Of a stretch of 64,000 nucleotides of DNA, positions 18,757 to 64,000 are shown one piece after another. Position numbers and translations under genes: made by a program. The notes under the pieces were generated by a model. The model made no database searches. It was given only the letters and a program-made list of their open reading frames with translations, and was not told where the DNA came from. Every line of letters starts with the position of its first letter. Position 1 is the first letter of the stretch. The DNA is from Teredinibacter turnerae (GTDB lineage: Bacteria; Pseudomonadota; Gammaproteobacteria; Pseudomonadales; Cellvibrionaceae). The DNA lies in the NCBI RefSeq assembly GCF_037935975.1, contig NZ_CP149817.1, forward strand, positions 620,001 to 684,000, in the 5' to 3' direction.

Positions 18757-18909
18757 CTGGCAATGACTATTGCGAAGTGCGTCGCCGGTGCAGGGAAGCA
18801 CCGCTGATGCCCGAAGTCTAATGTAAGCCATTGAAATATCAGAAAATTCCTACATTTTCGCCGGTACGGGCGCGTAGTTAAATAGACGGGACCATCTATT
18901 GTATTAGCC
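18757..18909 (+). repeat. Hairpin-rich interspersed repeat, copy 1
   Basis: Starts TGGCAATGACTATTGCGAAG just after the glucanase gene and continues through AATGTAAGCCATTGAAATAT and CCTACATTTTCGCC to a CCATCTATT end. The same succession of blocks appears near 61.85 kb (+), and on the - strand near 23.0 and 63.4 kb. The first half matches the 63.4 kb copy (TGGCAATGA, ATTGCGAAGT, CACCGC). Function unknown. Confidence 0.7.
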
Positions 18910-23104: not shown

Positions 23105-23110
23105 ATACTA

Positions 23111-23373
23111 GGGCCTGTTAACACTAATTCGATTCATTCTGTTGCGGCTAAAATTTCGCTGTCAAGGCGTTTGGAGCATAGTTTGGTTGTTCCAAATGAG
23201 CGATAAACAACGCTGAGAGCGGGATTTTAGCCGCAACCCGCAGGGCTGGGCCTGTATTTCCAGGCTGATGCGTTATTTTTCGCTCGTTTAGCCCGCTAAA
23301 CAACGCCAAAAATGCCTTTCATCCTGAAAATACAGGCTCCAGCAGAGCGAATTGAATTAGTGTTAACAGGCCC
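23111..23373. mobile_element. 263-bp TA-flanked miniature inverted-repeat element, copy 1
   Basis: Terminal inverted repeats begin GGGCCTGTTAACACTAATTC and are matched at the other end by GAATTAGTGTTAACAGGCCC. TA dinucleotides (23109-23110 and 23374-23375) flank it, as expected for IS630/Tc1-type TA target duplication. An internal stem GCGGCTAAAAT / ATTTTAGCCGC is present. No transposase is encoded, so it is non-autonomous. A copy of the same length at 63599-63861 differs at only about three positions. Confidence 0.85.
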
Positions 23374-23436
23374 TAAGCCAGGTTAACAGTCGACGCTGGT
23401 TCTACACACGTCGCGACATGTCTCGGGATCGTTCAC

Positions 23437-61839: not shown

Positions 61840-61957
61840 TTGGCAATGTAAGCCTTTGAAATATCAGAGCATTCATACATTTTCGCCAGTATTTCAAGAG
61901 CGCGTGATTATACAGAAATGATCATTTATTTAATTGCCTGGTTGAACTGCCGGGTTG
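61840..61957 (+). repeat. Hairpin-rich interspersed repeat, copy 3
   Basis: TGGCAATGTAAGCCTTTGAA, ATACATTTTCGCCAGTATTT, CAAGAGCGCGTGATTATACA and ATGATCATTTATTTAATTGC follow the same order as the other copies. It lacks the first half (the ATTGCGAAG and CACCGC blocks). TTGAAATA and TATTTCAA form one stem. Confidence 0.7.
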
Positions 61958-62437: not shown

Positions 62438-63103
62438 CTACGCCGCTGTGCTGAACCGGCGTTGGCGGTTAAGCTCGTAGATGGCCGCGAGTGCCTGACT
62501 GCCATTTCCTTGCATCAACCAGCGTATTCCCGGCTTATCAATATTTTCTGGTGCCAAAGCCCGGTAGAGCCAAAGTGTGGCGGGTAGTAGGAGAAGCGAG
62601 AGGGCGGCGTGCAGTAACAGCCAGCCTTGCGAGGCGTTCTGCAGCAGGTCGAACCCCAGAAGCGCTTGTGCCATCACCAATAGAAAAGCTGGATAAAAAG
62701 GTACAATCAACACTGCTGTCCGCGTATGTATCAACGCTGATAAACGAATATGCTGCAATTGTTGCTGCAGCTTTAGCACCGGCGCACTGTAATCCAACAT
62801 TAAAATACGCCTAATCTGCATTACTGCGCCTGTACATATAAATACTCCCCAGACGCTGAGTACAAGGCCGGCGCTGAGCAGATGGGTCTGCTCTGCGTGG
62901 TTAAATGCAAAGAAAAGTACGAAGCTGCTAAACAGGCAGCCAAGCAGCAATGAAAGTATATTCAGGCCCAGATAATTGTTGAGGTGACTTTGGGCTTTCA
63001 TTATTTTCAGCCCGCGCAATGTCTCAAGGTTCAGATGAAACTGTTGCTGTATGGCAGAATTTTGATCCTGCCATAGTCGTTCCAGTTTTGAGTAAGAATC
63101 CAT
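62438..63103 (-). CDS. Membrane protein encoded downstream of the ECF sigma gene
   Basis: 221 residues. An N-terminal cytoplasmic helical part (MDSYSKLERLWQDQNSAIQQ) is followed by about four transmembrane helices in two pairs. It starts 12 bp after the sigma-factor stop, the position where anti-sigma partners are usually encoded, but it shows no zinc-binding HxxxCxxC motif. It could regulate the sigma factor or be an effector of its regulon. Its promoter may have been separated from it by insertions in the sigma gene. Confidence 0.75.
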   Translation of the reverse strand: MDSYSKLERLWQDQNSAIQQQFHLNLETLRGLKIMKAQSHLNNYLGLNILSLLLGCLFSSFVLFFAFNHAEQTHLLSAGLVLSVWGVFICTGAVMQIRRILMLDYSAPVLKLQQQLQHIRLSALIHTRTAVLIVPFYPAFLLVMAQALLGFDLLQNASQGWLLLHAALSLLLLPATLWLYRALAPENIDKPGIRWLMQGNGSQALAAIYELNRQRRFSTAA

Positions 63104-63115
63104 AGGTCGATTTCC

Positions 63116-63352
63116 TTAGCGGTGTTCTGCAATCAGGCGTTGCCTGATGCGATTGATTTTAGTGCCGACGTTGGATTTAGAGATCGCCAAAATGCTGGCG
63201 ATTTCGTCGTACTTAAAGCCTTCCAAATGAAAGATCATCAACGCCCGTTCATATTTGTCCAGACTGTTCAATATTCGATAAAGTTCCAACTGAGGCTCGC
63301 TGGCACTTGATGTCACAGGTTCAGCCTGATGTTCTGGTTCTATATTCACCAC
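63116..63352 (-). pseudogene. ECF sigma factor, C-terminal fragment (region 4)
   Basis: 78 residues remain readable from GTG 63352. The region-4 helix-turn-helix is intact: LDKYERALMIFHLEGFKYDE, IASILAISKSNVGTKINRIR, QRL. Full ECF factors also need region 2, which is found upstream on the same strand, separated by two inserted repeats. On its own this fragment should not direct transcription. In-frame sequence upstream (SKVV) continues toward the insertion edge at about 63360. Confidence 0.85.
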
Positions 63353-63359
63353 CTTACTA

Positions 63360-63524
63360 TTAACGTGGCGATCAAATAGATGATCCTACCTATTTGATCG
63401 CGCACCCTTGAAATACTGACGAAAATGTCTGAGTTTTATGATATTTCAATGATTTACATTGCCCTTTGGGCAATGGCGGTGTTTCTCTGTCCCGTTTATC
63501 AACTTCGCAATTTTCATTGCCAAG
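63360..63524 (-). repeat. Hairpin-rich interspersed repeat, copy 4, inside the sigma-factor gene
   Basis: Read on the - strand: TTGGCAATGAAAATTGCGAA, CACCGCCATTGCCC-AAA-GGGCAATG, a TTGAAATA / TATTTCAA stem, and GATCAAATAGATAGG-type palindrome near 63370-63400. It begins right after sigma codons (CTGCGTATATTAGC) and ends before the region-4 fragment. This insertion gives an approximate boundary for the whole element, about 165 bp. Confidence 0.75.
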
Positions 63525-64000
63525 CTAATATACGCAGGCTGGTTTTGCGCAGCTGGGAAATTGCGGTATTCAGTGCGATCCGATAAATCCAGGTGTTAGG
63601 GCCTGTTAACACTAATTCGATTCATTCTGTTGCGGCTAAAATTTCGCTATCAAGGCGTTTAGAGCATAGTTTGGTTGTTCCAAATGAGCGATAAACAACG
63701 CTGAGAGCGGGATTTTAGCCGCAACCCGCAGGGCTGGGGCTGTATTTCCAGGCTGATGCGTTATTTTTCGCTCGTTTAGCCCGCTAAACAACGCCAAAAA
63801 TGCCTTTCATCCTGAAAATACAGGCTCCAGCAGAGCGAATTGAATTAGTGTTAACAGGCCCTAGGTTTGTACTGCGCGTCGTACTGCTCAAAGCCTACCC
63901 GCAGCTGTAGGGTAATTTCCTGTACGAGATCGTGAGTGGCTTCGGCGTTCGTTGTATAGCTGCGTGCGATCTTGAATATCATCGCCTTGTAATCGGCGAA
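63525..64000 (-). pseudogene. ECF sigma factor, N-terminal part (region 2), interrupted; runs off the window
   Basis: From the window edge the - strand reads YKAMIFKIARSYTTNAEATH, DLVQEITLQLRVGFEQYDAQ, a typical sigma region 2. The miniature element then splits a codon at TA. Beyond it the gene resumes as TWIYRIALNTAISQLRKTSL, RIL before the second insert. Removing the element and one TA restores QYKPNTWIYRIALNTAIS without a frameshift, which is good evidence for one ancestral gene. The N-terminus is outside the window. Confidence 0.85.
63599..63861. mobile_element. 263-bp TA-flanked miniature inverted-repeat element, copy 2
   Basis: Same length and nearly same sequence as 23111-23373 (about three differences, for example CTATCAAGG for CTGTCAAGG). 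TA dinucleotides at 63597-63598 and 63862-63863 flank the GGGCC...GGCCC ends. It interrupts the sigma-factor region 2. The high identity between copies suggests recent movement. Confidence 0.88.

Follow-up and report, generated by a model that had tools for sequence, protein, structure and literature searches.

In the genome of Teredinibacter turnerae, a gene for an extracytoplasmic-function-type (ECF) sigma factor appears to have lost its function in steps to two small non-autonomous transposons that are unrelated to each other, with the one termed insert B arriving before the one termed insert A, a reading to which we assign a probability of about 0.87. The window, the 64,000-nucleotide stretch that was analysed, comprises bases 620001-684000 of a single-contig genome of 5,348,823 bp. 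The pieces of the sigma gene run on the minus strand from genome position 684042 down to 683116 and are followed by a membrane-protein gene at 682438-683103. The first-pass annotation, to which the start of the gene was not visible because the ATG at genome position 684042 lies 42 bp beyond window position 64000, had recognized regions 2 and 4 of one ECF sigma factor on the minus strand. Profile searches agree: the 63-aa first piece matches the region 2 family PF04542 (E 8e-6), the 78-aa last piece matches the region 4 family PF08281 (E 1e-11), and the pieces can be aligned to uninterrupted ECF homologues. Neither of the outcomes that the first-pass annotation had named as refuting its view, a lack of ECF matches or fragments that had never belonged to one gene, came up. 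On sequence grounds, both inserts are real, and the fragments once formed a single ECF sigma-factor gene. The features, in window coordinates, are as follows.

63864..64000, running 42 bp past the window, minus strand: first piece of ECF region 2, from the PF04542 match
63531..63596, minus strand: second piece of ECF region 2 (NTWIYRIALNTAISQLRKTSLR), from frame reading and alignment to intact homologues
63597..63863, no strand assigned: insert A, a 263-bp MITE with TA target duplication and DUF4096 (IS5-type) ends, from its ends, its copies and same-ended elements in genomes G003 and G007
63358..63530, no strand assigned: insert B, a MITE-like, hairpin-rich repeat of 169 bp bounded by TA on either side, from the family alignment, its ends, one empty site elsewhere, the 3' half in common with G003, and covariation
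63116..63352, minus strand: ECF sigma region 4 remnant, a 78-codon open frame with a GTG start, from the PF08281 match, a dN/dS of 0.12 and an open frame in both species
62438..63103, minus strand: gene for a 221-aa helical membrane protein, the probable anti-sigma partner, from operon pairing, homologues and an AlphaFold2 model

Region 2 in this genome carries an arginine at an alignment column that is tryptophan in all 11 intact homologues. No second match to the region 4 remnant was found in the genome at E 0.001, and no empty sigma site was seen among close relatives. Upstream of the sigma gene, and with the same orientation, lies a gene for a 1361-aa protein (L009:2703-6788), whose match to a Cache domain is weak and falls short of the curated cut-off. 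A scan of 1.3 kb for sigma-70-type promoters gave 3 promoter-like sites against 2.2 in shuffles, and a search of 1.1 kb of the locus in Rfam gave a single match of 20.5 bits against a gathering score of 62, which we took as chance.

Insert A spans 63597-63863 with both TA dinucleotides included, and the element itself measures 263 bp. It had been described as a TA-flanked insert of that length whose removal with one TA restores the frame, and this was confirmed to the letter: excision yields exactly QYKPNTWIYRIA, at a place where the intact homologue of Cellvibrionaceae bacterium 1162T.S.0a.05 (G020) has EYKLSTWIYRIA. With up to 3 mismatches allowed, the A end was found 56 times in forward and 55 times in reverse orientation across the genome, and a reversed-pattern control was found on neither strand, so the repeats are not a product of chance. 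TA was present on both sides at 29 of 30 A loci read, the exception (L012) being a compound locus, and copies measured 263, 278, 343 and 351 bp. Folded as DNA, the A strand gives a z of -10.4; the interior is palindromic, with 68% identity to its own reverse complement. The longest frame overlapping A is 53 aa among listed frames of at least 40 aa, and no transposase gene lies inside.

Of the eight genus genomes, G003 and G007 have a transposase match to DUF4096 (PF13340); this genome has none. The G003 element (L160:1450-2243, 794 bp) has a frame that is broken as read, and both of its ends are A ends (21/21 bp, TA included); the 802-bp element of G007 matches the ends of A at 20/20 and 19/20 positions. 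The ends of A and of the G003 element are alike, whereas the interior of A is unrelated. Elements with a DUF4096 transposase we take to be of the IS5 family. The common ends, together with the TA duplication, the lack of a transposase and the many copies, mark A as an IS5-type (DUF4096) MITE. A helper for A was not found in this genome among the two transposase types searched, PF13340 and PF13358, nor was any transposase recognized by eye among the long frames of 13 stretches near A ends, 8 of them chosen for an unpaired end (in one case a short pair after all) and the other 5 containing short pairs.

Insert B occupies 63358-63530, that is, 173 bp with both terminal TA and 169 bp between them, and its ends are imperfect inverted repeats, TTAACCCGG and TTAACTTGG. 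The second insert had earlier been called a hairpin-rich repeat of roughly 165 bp; it is indeed a repeat and hairpin-rich, with the length now set at 169 bp. Empty sites were sought in ten 20-kb stretches chosen by expected position, of which 8 matched the flank of the copy and six had their junctions shown. One of these six (L048 against L180) is a clean empty site that reveals TA duplication by the B family, and the remaining five contain deletions or other elements. Because the family duplicates TA, exact removal of B from the sigma gene takes out 171 nt, which leaves region 4 out of frame, the frame ending SLRIVRW. An in-frame join requires the removal of 173 nt and, read by eye, gives S-L-R-S-K-V-V. 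The proposed joining of SLRIL to SKVVNIEP is thus only approximate, since exact excision frameshifts and the cuts that produce SLRIL plus SKVV fall inside the element ends. Either the two surplus bases were gained beside B after its insertion or the gene was already shifted.

Matches to the B family, counted as aligned pieces and not as copies, number at least 48 in this genome, at least 43 in G003, 7 in G005, 3 in G007, 1 in G001 and 0 in G002, G004 and G006, with 40 candidates scored in each of this genome and G003; a separate count in this genome, which scored 40 of 78 candidates, gave at least 41. The B strand folded as DNA gives a z of -5.9, and a seven-helix structure of our own naming is 91.8% paired over 21 of the 30 loci fetched. 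Covariation is moderate: 11 pairs changed on both sides, against 4.9 in shuffles and 4 to 9 in slid versions of the structure. For further pair types the observed value was reached by 78 of 500 shuffles and is not unusual, and two pairs that separate subfamilies supply 16 of the 28 both-side cells. B is a member of an older family of hairpin-rich, TA-inserting, MITE-like repeats. An IS630-type element was considered as the helper of B and gained no support: its transposase (PF13358) was not found in this genome, and in the two of eight genus genomes that have such genes, G001 and G006, no B end with 5 or fewer mismatches in 20 occurs in their loci, some B-like ends with 6 mismatches in 20 near these genes being taken as chance. 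A search of a plasmid collection with most of B and its flank gave no match.

The sister species, represented by G003, has a second version of the locus. Among the eight genus genomes it alone shares the membrane gene with this genome, and across the family the gene occurs in 4 of 144 genomes, this one included. Neighbouring genes are collinear between the two, the membrane genes are 95% identical, and region 4 is open in G003 and 92% identical. In G003 the 3' half of B occupies the same junction, A is not present, and region 2 has been lost; this state supports the earlier view of decay by two unrelated inserts. In place of the lost region 2, G003 has a quasi-palindrome with 33-bp arms (L100:3957-4049), paired at 29 of 33 positions, where the corresponding arms in this genome pair at 14 of 33; the loss itself looks like a template-switch deletion.

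Of nine G003 copies of B compared, seven lie in the same place as a copy in this genome, which makes a shared old insertion the plain reading at the sigma site. The sequences of the copies tell less. The two half-B copies differ at 8 of 80 positions and another copy in this genome differs by 6, so that they appear not to be each other's clear nearest relatives. At one shared site (L127 and L047), the two species carry different B subtypes, with 28 of 174 positions different, and the adjoining 300 bases to either side show 2-4% difference, which suggests gene conversion or repeated insertion at one site. At another (L109 and L041), the two species share a B copy that shows no difference over 174 bp, and the flanks differ by 4-6%. 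Against descent of B from a common insertion stand the deletion of its 5' junction in G003, where the duplication is accordingly out of sight, the unclear relationship of the half-B copies and the mixed subtypes at L127/L047; with the last two in view, it is position that carries the argument for an old B. One A copy elsewhere has no counterpart at the corresponding site of G003. B probably predates the species split, and A probably came later.

The history that we propose would begin, going by position, with the insertion of B into a TA of the linker that joined region 2 to region 4, in the ancestor shared by both species. With B alone the frame ends at 87 aa, and the sigma factor would thereby have been cut into a region 2 piece and a region 4 piece. 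From the sister lineage, region 2 would then have disappeared, as would the 5' half of B; in the lineage of this genome, a W-to-R change would have arisen in region 2 and A would have entered a second TA, in either order. The membrane gene and the region 4 frame would have survived, at least for now, and at no step would a working switch have arisen. Against this history count the 2 surplus bases left by exact excision of B and the fact that every close relative examined was without an empty sigma site. Going by these lesions, the sigma factor is nonfunctional as a sigma factor in both species. The locus is mostly a case of ordinary gene decay, and its odd leftover is the surviving region 4.

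Outside the two species, an ECF gene without internal stops precedes the membrane-gene homologue in all 11 cases examined. These comprise G020, Marinimicrobium sp. ABcell2 (G031), a Prevotellaceae MAG and the 8 other genomes for which a search of 398 genomes of the phylum gave a match (E 4e-75 to 5e-6). In one of the 11 pairs (L197), the match used ends within region 4. Identity to the membrane protein is 40-42% for the G020 and G031 homologues and 24% for that of the MAG. TIGR02937 matches the ECF proteins of two family neighbours with E 1e-28, and both regions, 2 and 4, lie in one protein. The sigma and membrane genes are therefore a fixed pair in the sample examined, and among the genomes compared the broken sigma state is found only in this species pair. 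The membrane protein itself has no match in Pfam or NCBIfam. AlphaFold2 predicted an all-helical protein, with a pLDDT of 84 for the best model and 62-70 for the other four. Since all 11 homologues follow an ECF gene, the protein is probably the partner or anti-sigma factor of the ECF sigma factor. The first-pass annotation had suggested that the membrane gene may be left without its regulator; the relationship is better reversed.

Tentatively, one may add to the decay of sigma activity that the region 4 remnant is still made and useful, as a stand-alone sigma-4 (HTH) protein that would act on the membrane protein, as its partner or as a decoy, or would be a small regulator that binds DNA. Substitutions in region 4 between the two species number 15, 9 of them at third positions, with 10 synonymous and 5 non-synonymous (five amino-acid changes), no stop and a dN/dS of 0.12. 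In unconstrained simulations with a transition bias of 1 to 8, five or fewer amino-acid changes among 15 substitutions arose in 0.0003 to 0.006 of runs, and the corresponding figure for the region 4 domain alone (11 substitutions, 3 changes) was 0.0007 to 0.005. Region 4 has a dN of 0.028, less than the divergence of the half of B that both species have (8/80), and the membrane gene is constrained too (21 synonymous and 13 non-synonymous substitutions, dN/dS 0.18). Region 4 and the membrane gene thus look constrained between the two species. The support, however, comes from one species pair and 15 substitutions, and the dN/dS of region 4 exceeds the 0.046 obtained for the last 300 codons of the upstream 1361-aa gene (56 synonymous, 11 non-synonymous), which are strongly constrained. 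The open frame says little, since 53-69% of neutral simulated frames stayed open as well.

More distant relatives do not show region 4 to be better kept than region 2. Of the columns kept in at least 10 of the 11 intact homologues, 3 of 13 are changed in region 4 here, one of the three being by our reading an alignment misplacement, against 2 of 18 in region 2 and 1 of 11 in region 4 of G003; of the columns invariant in three intact homologues, 3 of 18 are changed in region 4 and 7 of 35 in region 2. Relative-rate counts made against L105 are more favourable to retention, being near even for region 4 (4 against 4 with G020, 6 against 4 with G031) and skewed towards this genome for region 2 (10 changes of its own, compared with 3 for G020 at p 0.09 and 5 for G031 at p 0.30). 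The case for the retention of region 4 rests on the dN/dS of the species pair. In G003, two changes have placed AGGA upstream of an ATG just ahead of the region 4 domain, which would suit a retained sigma-4 protein, but the same codon here is only a GTG, and its ribosome site is, by eye, poorly placed. Retention further requires that B preceded the split, a dating that leans on position over sequence, and the constraint on region 4 may stem from translational coupling to the membrane gene. That selection has kept region 4 in both species as a small stand-alone -35-binding protein, working with or buffered by the membrane partner, is accordingly a possibility that we regard as doubtful.

The remaining explanations would keep the sigma factor alive or deny that it was broken. 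A reversible switch, in which excision of A and B restores the sigma factor in some cells, had been raised in the first-pass annotation and finds an argument in the exactly in-frame removal of A with one TA. It fails at B, whose exact excision leaves a frameshift; in addition, PF13340 and PF13358 transposases, the two types searched, were not found in this genome, the helper-type element of G003 has a frame broken as read, and region 2 here is without its invariant tryptophan. G003 could not switch back at all, since its region 2 is gone. We consider such a switch very improbable, and give equally little credit to the idea that B, possibly along with A, is passed over at the level of RNA or translation in a self-splicing or bypass-like manner so that the sigma factor is still made. 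The conserved hairpins of B and some compensatory changes among them (the 11 both-side pairs noted above) speak for such skipping, but it too would leave a frameshift, nothing in Rfam reached the gathering score on the B locus, and G003 retained region 4 although region 2 was lost. Moreover, at the 22 other B copies with both ends located no clear in-frame gene runs across the site, save for one marginal 20-codon tail, in a test that would miss out-of-frame sites such as that in the sigma gene. Misassembly is usually due to repeats, and an assembly artefact, or chance similarity between fragments that never were one gene, might be invoked here. No specific support for it was found, and the half-B at the same junction in G003, the collinear gene neighbours there, and the agreement of frame and linker length with intact homologues in other genera reduce its probability to almost nothing.

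Stepwise inactivation by the two inserts, with B first, presents a regulator lost in ordered steps to mini-transposons of two unrelated kinds, and both intact gene pairs and the pseudogene of the sister species are at hand for comparison. Gene inactivation by bacterial MITEs is treated in a review, with Anabaena mcy and Acinetobacter hns among the examples (PMC10969869). As in the cases given there, small non-autonomous inverted-repeat elements lie in a coding gene; unlike in those cases, two unrelated families have entered one gene, and the older can be dated relative to a species split. A two-subunit sigma factor, SigO-RsoA of Bacillus subtilis, with sigma-4 and sigma-2 as separate proteins, is described elsewhere (PMC8103513). 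Here, by contrast, the sigma-2 piece is interrupted in this genome and deleted in G003. With sigma-2 destroyed in both species, no two-part sigma factor would come from this locus. The sigma-like domain of PhyR acts as a sigma mimic. It is a degenerate sigma domain according to the same source (PMC8103513), and a remnant unable to initiate transcription might similarly bind an anti-sigma protein; in PhyR, however, a whole sigma-like domain sits in a response regulator, whereas here there is only region 4. Our literature searches found no work joining miniature inverted-repeat elements with Teredinibacter and none on a stand-alone sigma region 4. MITE inactivation is of a known kind, and the region 4 remnant is the part worth testing: if region 4 is under selection, a sigma factor would have become a different kind of regulator, which is directly testable in cultivated strains.

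Both families have left other traces. A second full copy of A lies in the window at 23109-23375 and is 98.9% identical to the sigma-gene copy, and two degraded B fragments lie at 61842-61938 and 18758-18900. At L013 (genome 4606422-4606686), an A copy splits a gene into two pieces with matches to DUF3391 and an HD domain. We presume this gene to be HD-GYP-like; with an A copy inside it, the sigma gene is not the sole gene hit. A third A copy, at L019, has a shorter frame running across its site. Minimal derivatives of A, 57 bp with both TA counted and consisting of nearly only the two ends, occur at L094:179-235, L095:228-284, L098:248-304 and L099:233-289.
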